Translations under genes and position numbers: made by a program
Assembly (NCBI GenBank): GCA_026708035.1
Contig: JAPOVQ010000035.1
Location: 186,001 to 250,000, forward strand
Length of the DNA: 64,000 nucleotides
Direction: 5' to 3'
Origin: Chloroflexota bacterium
GTDB taxonomy: Bacteria; Chloroflexota; UBA11872
Notes under the pieces: model-generated
Told to the model about the DNA's origin: nothing
The model's input: the letters and a program-made list of their open reading frames with translations, nothing else
The model's database searches: none
In this document: one piece after another, positions 52,565 through 59,563 of the stretch
Layout of the letters: every line of letters starts with the position of its first letter
Position numbering within the stretch: position 1 is the first letter of the stretch

Positions 52565-53557
52565 CTAGGATCCCGTCGTTTCGAGACGCACTCGCGGGTC
52601 GATATATGTATAGAGCACGTCGACGAGCAGGTTGGCCACGGCGTAGATGACCGCGGACAGCAGCACCAGGCCCTGCACCACCGGATAGTCGCGGTCGATG
52701 ATGGCGTCGATCAGCCGCAGTCCCAGTCCCTGGCGGTGGAACACGGCCTCGATGATCACCGCGCCGGCCAGCAGGCCGCCGAACTCGAGGCCGATGACGG
52801 TGACCACGGGAATCAGCGCGTTGCGCAGGGCGTGCCCCATCACGACCACGCGCTCGCGCAGCCCTTTCGACCGCGCCGTGCGCACGTAGTCGCGCGAGAG
52901 CACATCCAGCATCGATGAGCGGGTGAGTCGCGCCAGGATGGCGGATGCCGCGGTGCCCAGGGTGAGCGCCGGCAGGATCAGCTCCTTGCCGTAGCCGTTG
53001 GATACCGCCGGCAGCATGCCCACGCCGTCGTCCGTCTGCCATTTGATGGCGAATACCAGGATCAGGAGCAAGCCAACGAAGAAGGGCGGGAACGAGATGC
53101 CCAGGATGGCGAACATTTGCGCGCCATAGTCGACGAACGTGTGGCGTTTGATGGCCGAGATCACGCCCGCTCCGACGCCGATGGTGATCGCCACGGCCAT
53201 GCTCGCCATCGTCAGCGCAAACGTCGCCGGCCAGTGACTCGCAATCATGTCCACGACGGGGCGTCGGTAGGCGATCGACGTCCCCAGGTCGCCACGCACC
53301 ACGTCCCAGACGTAGAGCACGAATTGGTGCGGCGGCGACTTATCCAGGTTGTAGCTTTCCCGCAGCTTCTCGAGCGCCTTGCGGCTGACTTCGCCGCCCT
53401 CGCGGCTGGTCGCGCCTGAGCCGCCGATCTCGCCCGACTGGAAGAATATCTCGATCGGGTCGCCCGGAATCAGCCGCATGAGCACAAACACCACGATCAG
53501 CACGCCGAACAGGACGGGGATCATGTAAAGGACGCGGCGGATGATGTACCCAACCAT
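52565..53557 (-). CDS. dipeptide/oligopeptide-type ABC transporter permease (DppB-like)
   Basis: 330 residues with six membrane helices. The first helix is IPVLFGVLIVVFVLMRLIPG; the periplasmic loop has LDKSPPHQFVLYVWDVVRGD; the cytoplasmic EAA coupling loop is DYVRTARSKGLRERVVVMGH followed by ALRNALIPV. Together with the upstream substrate-binding protein and DppC-like permease it forms an importer, but no ATPase gene is adjacent. Confidence 0.93.
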   Translation of the reverse strand: MVGYIIRRVLYMIPVLFGVLIVVFVLMRLIPGDPIEIFFQSGEIGGSGATSREGGEVSRKALEKLRESYNLDKSPPHQFVLYVWDVVRGDLGTSIAYRRPVVDMIASHWPATFALTMASMAVAITIGVGAGVISAIKRHTFVDYGAQMFAILGISFPPFFVGLLLILVFAIKWQTDDGVGMLPAVSNGYGKELILPALTLGTAASAILARLTRSSMLDVLSRDYVRTARSKGLRERVVVMGHALRNALIPVVTVIGLEFGGLLAGAVIIEAVFHRQGLGLRLIDAIIDRDYPVVQGLVLLSAVIYAVANLLVDVLYTYIDPRVRLETTGS

Positions 53558-53642: not shown

Positions 53643-55634
53643 CTACTCCTGGGTGCTGTAGAACTGCCCGTAGCTGGGCAGGTAGTCAATACCCAAGTGC
53701 AGCACGCCGCCGATGCGGTCCGGGTTGGACAGCCACGGCAGGTAGTCGTGCACCAACGGGATGGCAACCGCGTTCTCCATCAGGTAGAGCTCGGCTTCCT
53801 CCCAGATGGCCCGCTGCTCGTCCGGATCGAAGCTGGCCCGCGCGGCGTCCAGCAGACCGTCGATCTTCGCGCCTTCCGTCGCGGTGGCCGGAACGCCGTC
53901 CCACTCGAAGAACGAGTAGGCGCGGCCCGGTCGACCGTAGAAGGAAGTGTGGAAGCGGTCGTACAGCACGTCGCCGTTCGGACCCGCCACGCCGATCCAC
54001 GTGGTGTGGAAGGCGCCGTCCTGGGCCTGCTCGCGGTGCGTGGCCTCATCCATCTTCGGGATGTTCACCTGGATGCCCAGGCTCCGCTCGACGTCCAGCT
54101 TGAACAGCTCGACCACGGGGTCGCCGCGGTCGGGGTAGCTGATCTCGAGCTTGCGGCCGTCCGGCGCGTATCGGAAGCCGTCGTCGCCCATGGCGTAGCC
54201 GGCCTCGTCAAGCAGCGCGCTGCCCTTGGCCGGGTCATACGTGTAGAGCTGGCCGGCCTCGGCGCTGCGGCCGACGGTGCCCGGCACCAGCAGGTTGCTG
54301 ATGTTGGTCGGAGCCGTGCCGCCGTTCGCGCGCACCGTCACGGTTCGCCGGTCGACGCCGAACAGCAGCGCCTTGCGCACCGCCAGGTCGTCCAGCGGCC
54401 AGAGCTGCGTGTGCAGGGGCATGTACTGCCCCATGCCCGGCGCCGCAAAGCCGATGACGTGGTACTTCGGGTTCTCGGACACCCGCTTGTAGTCGGCGAA
54501 TGACCAGTTCAACAGGATGTCGACTTCGCCCGCCTCGAAGGCCTGGGCGTTGTCGGTCATGTTGAAGCCGAAGATCTGCGACCGCATGCGGTCGGGATAC
54601 GCCGGACCCTGGTTCGGCAGGTACGACGGGCCCCAGGCCCAGTTGTCGAACCGCTCGCCGACGATCTTCACGTCGTCTTCCCACTCGAGGAACTTGTAGG
54701 GACCGGTGCCGACCGCGTGGCGGTCGAGATCCTCGCCCATCTCCGTGATGGCCTTTGGCGAGGCGAACACCACGTGCTGGTGAGCGATGAACTTCAGGAA
54801 GAACGCCTGCGGCTGGTCCGTGTGGAACCGAAGCGTGAAGTCGTTGACTTTCTCGATGCCCGTAATGCCGGCGATGTCGCGAACGACGTGGCCGCGCGGC
54901 AGCTCTTCGTCGAGGAATCGGTCGAAGTTGAAGATCGCGGCGTCCGCGTCAAACGGCGTGTCGTCGTGGAAGGACACGTCGTTCCGCAGCGGCACCGTCC
55001 AGCTCAGCTTGTCATCCGAAACCTCGGGCAGGTCGGAAGCCAGCGTCGGCAGGATCGCGTTGCCCGGGCCGTAGTTGTACAGCAGTTCGTAGAACATGTT
55101 CGCCGGCTCGGCGGTGCGTCCGCCCCACGTCGCCGGGTCGAAGTTCGTCGGGTTGCCGAAGGTCATGTAGCTGACCTCGCCGCCAACCTTGGGGTCCCAC
55201 GGCTTCAGACCGATGTTGACCGCCGAGTCGAGGTTGTGGATGTCGATGCCCGGCGCGCGCTCGGCGGCCTGCTCGACGATCTTCTCGACCACCCGCTCGA
55301 CGACCTTCTGGACTTCAACCTCACGGATCACGTCGCGGGTGACGACCTTCTCGACCTCGACCTCTTTGACCGTCTCGACCGGGACTTCCTTGATCACCTC
55401 TTTGGTGACGACCGTCTCGACCGGGACTTCCTTGATCACCTCTTTGGTGACCACCGTCTCGACCGGGACTTCCTTCACCACTTCCTTGACTTCGGTGACC
55501 GTGACCGTGACCGTCTTCTCGACGACCTCGGCCTCGCCGCACGCGGCCAGAGCGGCTACTCCAACACCGCCCGCCAGCGCCGCCGCCCCACCGCGGAGCA
55601 GCTTGCGACGACTCAATGACTTACTCGGACCCAT
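53643..55634 (-). CDS. ABC transporter substrate-binding lipoprotein (DppA/OppA family)
   Basis: 663 residues from ATG 55634, which lies 7 bases after a GGAGGGG; an ATG two codons earlier has no room for that site. A twin-arginine signal (SRRKLLRG) and lipobox at C32 predict a Tat lipoprotein. Residues about 37-130 are a Val/Glu/Lys-rich spacer with three repeats of VETVVTKEVIKEVP. The periplasmic binding domain (SBP family 5) includes NPTNFDPATWGG and LSWTVPLRNDVSFHDDTP. The ligand is unknown. Confidence 0.9.
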   Translation of the reverse strand: MGPSKSLSRRKLLRGGAAALAGGVGVAALAACGEAEVVEKTVTVTVTEVKEVVKEVPVETVVTKEVIKEVPVETVVTKEVIKEVPVETVKEVEVEKVVTRDVIREVEVQKVVERVVEKIVEQAAERAPGIDIHNLDSAVNIGLKPWDPKVGGEVSYMTFGNPTNFDPATWGGRTAEPANMFYELLYNYGPGNAILPTLASDLPEVSDDKLSWTVPLRNDVSFHDDTPFDADAAIFNFDRFLDEELPRGHVVRDIAGITGIEKVNDFTLRFHTDQPQAFFLKFIAHQHVVFASPKAITEMGEDLDRHAVGTGPYKFLEWEDDVKIVGERFDNWAWGPSYLPNQGPAYPDRMRSQIFGFNMTDNAQAFEAGEVDILLNWSFADYKRVSENPKYHVIGFAAPGMGQYMPLHTQLWPLDDLAVRKALLFGVDRRTVTVRANGGTAPTNISNLLVPGTVGRSAEAGQLYTYDPAKGSALLDEAGYAMGDDGFRYAPDGRKLEISYPDRGDPVVELFKLDVERSLGIQVNIPKMDEATHREQAQDGAFHTTWIGVAGPNGDVLYDRFHTSFYGRPGRAYSFFEWDGVPATATEGAKIDGLLDAARASFDPDEQRAIWEEAELYLMENAVAIPLVHDYLPWLSNPDRIGGVLHLGIDYLPSYGQFYSTQE
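55370..55475 (-). repeat. in-gene tandem repeat encoding the Val/Glu/Lys spacer
   Basis: A 42-base unit (14 codons) is present as two near-identical copies plus a partial third. Shared words include CGTCTCGACCGGGACTTCCT on the plus strand. Repeat-number change would alter spacer length in the substrate-binding protein without shifting the frame. Confidence 0.75.
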
Positions 55635-55745
55635 AGACATTCCCCTCCCATTTGGGGTGATCGTGCAGGCACGCGGCGCGCATACTACACGACTCTTGTG
55701 AAACAGGCACACGTATTTCCTGTTACCGGTACGAACTACACGCGC

Positions 55746-56663
55746 TCAGTGCGACCACGCCCCAGCTTGCGGATCGAGCGCCTCGCGCAGCCCATCTCCC
55801 AGCAGATTGATCGACAGCACCGTGATGGCGATGGCCAACCCGTTGAAGGTGGAGATCCACCACGACGACCGCAGCAAATGCCGGCTCGATGACAGCTCCA
55901 AGCCCCACTCGGGCGACGGGCGCTCGGCGCCCAGGCCCAGGAAGCTCAAGCCCGCGGCGGCCAGGATGGCCCCGCCCAGACCCAGCGTGGCCATGATCAG
56001 AATTGGGCTAACGATGTTTGGCAGAATGTGACGCAGCATGATGCGGGCGTCGGACATGCCCACGGCGCGCGCCGCCCGCACGTACACCAGCTCCCGCGCG
56101 GCGAGCGTCGTCGAACGCACCACGCGCGCATAGAACGGGATACCGGCCACTCCCAGCGCAATCATGGCGTTGTTGAGGCCAGACCCAAGAGCGGCAACCA
56201 CCGTCATCGCCAGCAGCAATCCCGGGAACGCCAGCATCACGTCAATGAACCGGCTGATGACCATGTCCACCCAGCGCCCGAAATAGCCCGCCGACAACCC
56301 AATCAGCGTCCCGGCGATAGCCGAAATCGTCACCGCGGAGAACCCGACGCGAAGCGAAATCCGCGAGCCACGCACGATGCGGCTGAACACGTCGCGCCCG
56401 ATGTCGTCGGTGCCTAGCGGGTGGCCCTCCGAACCCGGAGGCAGCTCGGCCGCCATGATGTCGAAGTGGTTCTCCGGTTCGGTCGCAATGACATCGGCAA
56501 AGATCGCCGCCAGCGAAATGATGATCAGAATGCCCAGCCCCCCGAGGGCGGCCTTGTTCCGGCGCAGCCGCCGCCACGCCATCGTCCACTCGCTGCGCGG
56601 TTTCGGCGCGGCGGCGGCCTCGAGCCCGGTCTCGCCCTCAGCCAGCGTATTGGTGGCCAACAT
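55746..56663 (-). CDS. dipeptide/oligopeptide-type ABC transporter permease (DppC-like)
   Basis: 305 residues from ATG 56663, which follows GGAGAG at very short spacing; the nearby TTG 56660 has better spacing. The N-terminal WTMAWRRLRRNKAALGG, the HPLGTDDIGRDVFSRIVRGS motif, six helices, and the EAA loop VYVRAARAVGMSDARIMLRH mark DppC. It is complete, unlike the two paralogues to its right. 111 bases separate it from the substrate-binding protein start. Confidence 0.92.
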   Translation of the reverse strand: MLATNTLAEGETGLEAAAAPKPRSEWTMAWRRLRRNKAALGGLGILIIISLAAIFADVIATEPENHFDIMAAELPPGSEGHPLGTDDIGRDVFSRIVRGSRISLRVGFSAVTISAIAGTLIGLSAGYFGRWVDMVISRFIDVMLAFPGLLLAMTVVAALGSGLNNAMIALGVAGIPFYARVVRSTTLAARELVYVRAARAVGMSDARIMLRHILPNIVSPILIMATLGLGGAILAAAGLSFLGLGAERPSPEWGLELSSSRHLLRSSWWISTFNGLAIAITVLSINLLGDGLREALDPQAGAWSH

Positions 56664-56756
56664 CTCTCCTTCGCGTGAAATCCCGACCAAATCGCAGCAG
56701 TCGCTGCGGCCGCCTTGAGCGGTCGCCCGCCAACGCTACCACTCCGGCCATGCCAG

Positions 56757-57041: not shown

Positions 57042-57587
57042 GTGTCGACGGACGCCCTAAGAGAGCCGACCAGCGCGACAGCGCAAGACCCACTCGAACT
57101 GCGTCCGCCGCGCAGCGAGTTGCAGATGTCCTATCGCCGCTTTTGGCGCCACAAAGCGGCCGTCGTCGGCCTCACGATCCTCATCATCATCAGCATCGGC
57201 GCGATATTCGCGGATGTCATCGCCATCGAGCCCGAAGCGACGTTCTATAGCTTCGATGAGCTCCAGACCAAGAAATGGCTGCCTCCGCTGACCGACGGCC
57301 ACCTGCTGGGCACCGACGACATCGGGCGTGACGTGTTCAGCCGCGTCGTCCGCGGCTCACGCGTGTCGCTGCGTGTTGGGTTCTTCGCAGTGGGCATCGC
57401 CAGCATCGCCGGCACGCTATTCGGTCTCGCCGCTGGCTACTTCGGCGGCTGGATCGACCAGATGGTCAGCCGAGCCATCGACGTGATGCTGGCCTTCCCG
57501 GACTTGCTGCTGGCGATTGCGATTCTGGCGGCGCTCGGCCCTAGTCTCGTGAACGCCATGGTGGCCCTCGGGCTGGCGGGGATTCCC
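57042..57587 (+). pseudogene. dppC-like permease fragment A (3' half missing)
   Basis: Starts at GTG 57042 after a GGGAG at 5-base spacing. It encodes a normal DppC N-terminal half: SYRRFWRHKAAVVGLTILII, GHLLGTDDIGRDVFSRVVRG, and helices down to ALGLAGIP. Homology stops at 57587; the frame then runs 44 codons into antisense of fragment B and stops at 57719. The coupling (EAA) loop and last helices are gone, so the product cannot be a working permease. It is fused tail to tail with fragment B. Confidence 0.85.
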
Positions 57588-58093
57588 AGCGCGATCATGG
57601 CGTTGTTCAGCCCGGGACCCAGTCCCGCCACGATGGTGATGGCCAGCAGCAGGCTGGGAAACGCCAGCATGATGTCCAGCACGCGGCTGATCAGCATGTC
57701 CGGCCAGCGGCCGAAGTAGCCGGCGACCAATCCCAGAATGGACCCGAAAAACGCCCCAATGGCAACCGCCGTAAACCCGATGCGCAAGGAGATGCGCGCC
57801 CCTCGCACCACGCGGCTGAACACGTCGCGTCCGATATCGTCCGTGCCGAAGAGGTGGCCGTCCGTGCCCGGCGGCAACAGCGCTCCCGGAACGTTGTAGT
57901 AGTCCAGTCCTTCAGTAGCAATCACGTCGGCGAAAATCGCCCCGGTCGCCATCACGATGAGCACCGCGCCGCCAACCAGAGCGCCCTTGTTCCGGTAGAG
58001 ACGCCGCCAGGCCAGCGACCATTCGCTGCGCGGCTTGGCCTGCACGGCGCCCTGGAGCGCCGAATCGCCCGCCACCCGTGACTCCAAGCTCAA
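57585..58093 (-). pseudogene. dppC-like permease fragment B (3' half missing)
   Basis: Minus-strand paralogue. The start is uncertain (TTG 58093 gives LSLESRVAGDSALQ as the beginning; upstream frame is open to 58183). KPRSEWSLAWRRLYRNKGAL, GHLFGTDDIGRDVFSRVVRG and NAMIALG are conserved. Homology ends at 57585, at the same family position where fragment A ends, with four shared bases (TCCC on the plus strand). The frame continues antisense into A and stops at 57437. About 110 residues, including the EAA loop, are missing. Confidence 0.85.
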
Positions 58094-58615
58094 CGACCGC
58101 CCCCGGTCCCGGTACAGATGCGCATCGCAGCGCGGACATCCAGGTCGACCGACAGCAGAGCCGGCCCGATCCAGAACGAGCAATCAACCGGGCGGCCGCC
58201 GCTGTCGATTGAACCTAAACTGCCCGACCAAGAAGCGTCAATCCCGCGACGAGTCCGGTAGTGGGTCACCTCGAGCCCGGCGCCCCCGCGAAGGGAGCCC
58301 CTGCGCAACCCCTCCGTCATACCCGCGGAGCCCGTCCCCGCGCAGGCGGGGAGCGGGAATCCACCCTTCATTGAACCCGGGAGCGGATTGGGTTCGCCCG
58401 GTCATCCTCAAGCATGGCCAGGTTTCGCAAGGGTCTCTCAATGGGGAGGGATATGAGGGAGCAAGTGATGCACGGCATCGCCGGATGCCTGCGAATGGAA
58501 GCGGAGTGCCGCCGGCCAGACACCCACGCCCGTCATGCGCGATACTGTCGCACCAGCCGCGCAGGGACGCCACCGGAGTTGCCGTGAAAGTCGACCACCA
58601 GCGCCCGAGCCACTC
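58094..58615. other. intergenic region with dispersed repeats
   Basis: No gene was found. It contains a REP-like palindrome (58318-58366) and related repeat fragments from about 58285 to 58440. No clear promoter for the downstream TIM-barrel gene was seen. Confidence 0.6.
58318..58366. repeat. REP-like palindromic repeat, copy 2
   Basis: Same nested structure as 28174-28222 (an outer CCCGC/GCGGG and an inner CCCCGC/GCGGGG), six base differences in 49. The flanking sequence is different, so the repeat and not a larger duplication is shared. Confidence 0.7.
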
Positions 58616-59563
58616 GTGAAGCTCTGCATTTCCATCGCGTGCTACCGCTGGGCGTTCCAGCCGTCGATTCGGCGCGATGGCCCCGACTACCGCGCGGGCG
58701 GCGGGCCGCTAGCCTACTTGCAGTCATTCTCAGACCCACCGCCGGAAGACAACCGCTTCTTCTGGATGTGCGACAAGACGGCCGAGCTGGGACTCCAGGG
58801 CCTCTACGCACACCCAGGCGAATACGTCGACGACCGGGCCGGGGCCGAAGCCATGCGCCGCAAGGTCGACGACCGCGGATTGATCTGGAACGGCGGGCTC
58901 ACGGTCAACATGGCCGCCACCGACGAGGAGTGGGAGAGCTTCGAGTACGACAACGCCGTGCGCCAGCTCGAGCTCAACCATTGGGCCGGCCTCAACATCG
59001 CCACCATGACTCACCGGCTGCCCAACGTGCACAACCACTTCTCGACCGACCCGCCCATCGACGAGCAGATGGCGCGCGCCGCCAAGCATCTCCCCGCGCT
59101 CACGCCCGTGGCCGAGGAGCTTGGCGTGATCATGGCCTGGGAAAACCACATGGACTACCGCGTCTCCGAGGTGGCCGGGGTCGTCAACGAGATCGACTCA
59201 CCCTGGCTGCGGATCACCCTCGACACCTCCAACCCGTTTCCGAGTCTCGAGGATCCGCTGGAGGGCGCGCGCATCGCCGCCCGCAACGTCGTGGCGGTGC
59301 ACTTCAAGGACTTTCGCGCCCAACCGCTGCGCGAAACCTGGGAGCCGCACTTCCACTACTCGCCCGTGGGCCACGGCGACTCGCCCATCGGCGAGATTCT
59401 CGCGCTGCTCCAGGCCGAGGCGCCCGATCCGGACAACCTGCTGGCCAACATCGAAATCTCGCCGCCGCCGCAGCACGACCCGGAAGCCTGGGTGCTCGAG
59501 AGCAAGCGCTGGCTGCTCGAAGAGCAGGGCCAGTACTTCGAGCCCCATCTGACCGTCCAATGA
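58616..59563 (+). CDS. TIM-barrel sugar isomerase/epimerase-like protein (xylose isomerase-like fold), first copy
   Basis: 315 residues from GTG 58616. A (beta/alpha)8 protein with a likely metal site formed by E176 (AWENHMDYR), D203 (TLDTSN), H229 (VHFKDF) and a late Glu (NIEISPPP). Most relatives isomerise or epimerise sugars or sugar acids; the substrate is unknown. It overlaps the second copy by four bases (ATGA), so the two are translationally coupled. Confidence 0.85.
   Translation: MKLCISIACYRWAFQPSIRRDGPDYRAGGGPLAYLQSFSDPPPEDNRFFWMCDKTAELGLQGLYAHPGEYVDDRAGAEAMRRKVDDRGLIWNGGLTVNMAATDEEWESFEYDNAVRQLELNHWAGLNIATMTHRLPNVHNHFSTDPPIDEQMARAAKHLPALTPVAEELGVIMAWENHMDYRVSEVAGVVNEIDSPWLRITLDTSNPFPSLEDPLEGARIAARNVVAVHFKDFRAQPLRETWEPHFHYSPVGHGDSPIGEILALLQAEAPDPDNLLANIEISPPPQHDPEAWVLESKRWLLEEQGQYFEPHLTVQ

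Follow-up and report, generated by a model that had tools for sequence, protein, structure and literature searches.

A tail-to-tail pair of dppC stubs in a Chloroflexota genome, the probable scar of a ~14-kb deletion

Two dppC stubs and their joint

The window analyzed here is a stretch of 64,000 nucleotides, bases 186001-250000 of contig C35, from a 3.46-Mb genome (G000) that is 96% complete, is divided among 36 contigs, and has the look of a metagenome bin; its relatives by protein search are Chloroflexi/Chloroflexota MAGs. We compared it with 18 other genomes of the family, comprising five congeners (G001-G005) and 13 further members, the window's own species being represented by one genome. 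Two truncated permease genes meet tail to tail in the window, between a third transporter operon on one side and a sugar-isomerase-like gene on the other (Table 1).

Table 1. Genes and features around the joint of the two dppC stubs (window coordinates)
Feature	Position	Strand	Remarks
dppB permease, third operon	52565..53557	-	
Solute-binding protein SBP_bac_5, third operon	53643..55643	-	
Intact dppC, first gene of third operon (dppC, SBP, dppB)	55746..56690	-	Full BPD_transp_1 and OppC_N; same place in congeners
dppC-A stub, 5' part of an OppC/DppC-type permease, without its 3' half	57042..57587	+	OppC_N and partial BPD_transp_1
Probable deletion joint, CCC common to both partners	57585..57587	.	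Window aligned to A and B of the five congeners and C10
dppC-B stub, 5' part of a second OppC/DppC-type permease	57585..58093	-	OppC_N and partial BPD_transp_1
Sugar-isomerase-like gene, right flank of the cassette	58620..59563	+	Colinear in congeners; function from inspection of the translation only

The first-pass annotation of this DNA had read the two truncated frames as fragments of different DppC paralogues with an intact dppC close by, and both claims are borne out. Each stub matches OppC_N and the start of BPD_transp_1 in Pfam, the latter domain being incomplete in both (only about the first 50-73 of its 184 positions are matched), and the intact gene beside them carries both domains in full. 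The A stub shares about 85-96% identity with the 5' half of the whole genes in the five congeners and on a second contig of the same genome, C10; the B stub is 82-94% identical to the whole genes in congeners. Compared with each other, the stubs are 67% identical over 292 bp in inverted orientation, and they are therefore paralogues rather than one a copy of the other. Full-length homologues of A and of B stand at separate places on C10 and in every congener. Lying tail to tail, the leftover 5' halves form a quasi-palindrome whose two arms are about 290 bp each.

In the third operon, a run of EVxVEKVVxKEVIKEVPVE-like repeats (window 55262-55605) follows the lipoprotein signal of the solute-binding proteins, and stretches of this kind match many loci per genome across the genus.

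By aligning six A and six B copies, we found that the window tracks A through GGGGATTCCC and tracks B from CCCAGCGCG, with CCC in both. An overlap of four bases, TCCC, had been proposed at this point; its CCC is indeed common to the two partners, but the T is derived from A, as all six B copies (every congener and C10) read C at that position. The related proposal that both genes break at the same family residue is nearly correct, but A keeps ALGLAGIP and B ends after ALG, so that, counted along dppC, the gene is cut 13-16 nt later in A than in B. Although CCC is the certain extent of sharing at the joint, eight of ten bases are alike when B of three congeners is taken. Sharing of 3 bp is little above chance (by our own estimate, 3 or more would be shared about 5% of the time), and an offset of 13-16 nt has a chance of about 3-4% if both breaks fall at random within two dppC genes of about 910 bp. 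The small offset fits a pairing of inverted dppC paralogues and is suggestive of it, short of proof.

Gene order in the congeners and a second cassette

All five congeners carry A (+) and B (-) on one contig, oriented as in the window, both whole and facing each other across an interior of 12,454-14,158 bp. The window is colinear with these genomes over ~45.5-57.59 kb and ~57.58-72 kb, at 82-94% identity, and the sole gap falls at the joint; for each congener taken singly, colinearity starts at about 46 kb and reaches at least 68 kb. Because both flanks are colinear and the only jump is at the joint, the window is the ancestral locus minus its interior, and the pattern is that of an interstitial deletion: colinear flanks on both sides, with a segment that is present in the outgroups and absent here at the locus. 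The interior of G004 opens with the remainder of dppC-A, followed by an SBP_bac_5 protein, dppB, a mandelate-racemase-type enzyme, and a GH32 glycosidase, and it continues with two related proteins without a Pfam match and then, on the other strand, the dppB, SBP, and dppC of operon B. These alignments give directly the ancestral order and the position and extent of what is gone. Each of the two operons thereby lacks the 3' half of its dppC, its solute-binding protein, and its dppB permease in the window, and the glycosidase, the racemase-type enzyme, and the two unnamed paralogues are missing as well. The stubs lie tail to tail because the operons are convergent.

The joint is unique among the compared genomes, as no match spanning it turned up when the 18 other family members were searched. 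The stubs, moreover, are little decayed: their dN/dS against the congeners, 0.05-0.13, falls in the range seen when intact copies are compared, which argues that the loss is recent and that little time has passed without constraint.

G000 holds a second cassette at C10:102510-122225, in which dppC, SBP, and dppB are full length in both operons (six of six transporter genes); no second cassette at such identity occurs in the five congeners. We rejected the possibility that this is the missing interior of C35, since its A and B ends match the stubs at 89-91% identity, the DNA on its left is unrelated to the C35 locus, and its interior spans 18.3 kb. Elsewhere in G000, two stretches to the left of the cassette find only paralogues or short repeats and nothing duplicated at strain level, and their orthologous counterparts in several congeners are about 90-94% identical, a combination that disfavors C10 as a contig from a foreign strain. 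Judged from these sequences, C10 is probably native to the genome, the less likely alternative being a mis-binned contig from a congener.

Several other features mark this contig. A DDE transposase (IS-like) is inserted within the racemase gene of the cassette, unrelated DNA lies mid-cassette, and a gene for an N6/N4 DNA methylase with an HNH domain adjoins the cassette on the left. The start of the isomerase-like gene occurs in two fragments, C10:117162-117453 (= window 58634-58926) and C10:122289-122402 (= window 58597-58710), the latter cut by other sequence near the contig end. A repeat of ~140 bp, 76% identical, is found at C10:102351-102489, just outside the left cassette edge, and at C10:117000-117138, just before the isomerase fragment; it occurs once in G003.

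Origin of the joint

We read the joint as very probably the recent scar of one ~14-kb deletion that runs from mid dppC-A to mid dppC-B. The first-pass annotation had entertained a genuine rearrangement disrupting two transporters, and the absence of an interior that five congeners retain supports this. It had also raised the prospect of a chimeric assembly joint. With an assembly or library chimera, the 14 kb would still be present in the chromosome, and the contig would be misjoined at the two dppC genes. A bin-like genome in 36 contigs, stubs without decay, and the presence of inverted paralogues would all suit such an artifact, but we consider it unlikely, given that assemblers work with k-mers much longer than an overlap of 3 bases. 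Since so few bases would not let a de Bruijn assembler make the connection, reads bearing the joint must presumably have existed and dominated; a chimera formed in the library is a minor possibility. Both sides of C35, furthermore, are each in their expected place, and when the initial 3 kb of the interior was searched across the whole genome, the only close match was the diverged C10 cassette in its other context, with no C35-type copy elsewhere in the bin.

A fold-back inversion was another earlier suggestion. A fold-back or inversion event that brought together two paralogues once located elsewhere in the genome would account for stubs that are mutually inverted and 67% identical. The inverted layout is ancestral, however, with A on the plus strand and B on the minus strand at the same locus in five congeners; nothing in the window is inverted, no flank is reversed, and the interior alone is gone from an otherwise conserved order and orientation. 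Synteny with the five congeners thus leads us to reject this origin, which is very improbable. We give hardly more credence to the idea that the stubs are retained for a function, for example in the form of truncated proteins or of a fused ORF of 225 aa. Their dN/dS is low and the ORF at 57042-57719 is open through the joint, but the low dN/dS would be inherited from before the deletion, the part of the ORF past the joint is antisense to dppC-B, and the permease core is cut.

The lineage carried at this locus convergent ABC transporter operons of dipeptide/oligopeptide type, dppC-SBP-dppB facing dppB-SBP-dppC, around sugar-enzyme genes, an arrangement that the five congeners retain; if the joint is a deletion scar, a single event of ~14 kb took everything from the middle of one dppC to the middle of the other. 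The deletion may have arisen between two short stretches of similar sequence, GGGGATTCCC in A and GGCRATCCCC in B, as DNA was replicated or repaired, and the inverted dppC paralogues may have assisted by pairing. We found no Ku gene in the 96%-complete G000 (PF02735; the control was positive in Bacillus subtilis), which makes classical bacterial NHEJ unlikely. We therefore tentatively favor replication slippage, template switching, or another Ku-independent route between short similar sequences, and template switching across the inverted paralogues is a possible form of it. The second cassette on C10, with its six full-length transporter genes, probably made the loss tolerable and may have done so through redundancy. 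We doubt strongly that a wider rule applies, namely that convergent paralogous transporter operons are deletion hot spots in the genus, where paired inverted paralogues guide template switching, so that the intervening block is removed and quasi-palindromic scars are left.

Comparison with known deletions and cluster losses

Even where a genome is fragmented, an odd tail-to-tail gene fusion can be genuine, and it becomes readable as a deletion once congeners are available. For this species, one uptake cassette has very probably been lost at its ancestral locus, with a second copy elsewhere as a backup. Genome changes of this kind are ordinary, and the general biological interest of this one is small.

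In bacteria, slipped mispairing and hairpin-stimulated deletion are known forms of deletion in which short direct similarity lies between inverted repeats (e.g., Dasgupta 1987; Sinden 1991; both listed among the references of PMC7999016). The present joint resembles these deletions in its few shared bases and in breaks that fall at nearly matching spots of an inverted pair. It differs from them in that the loop is 14 kb, the arms here are only 67% alike, and a stable hairpin is not evident. The locus also resembles the lineage-specific loss of a redundant cluster, in that one species lost what five sisters keep while holding a second copy; unlike the redundant partner in such cases, however, this second copy is no recent duplicate, being about 10% diverged and carrying an IS-type transposase insertion.
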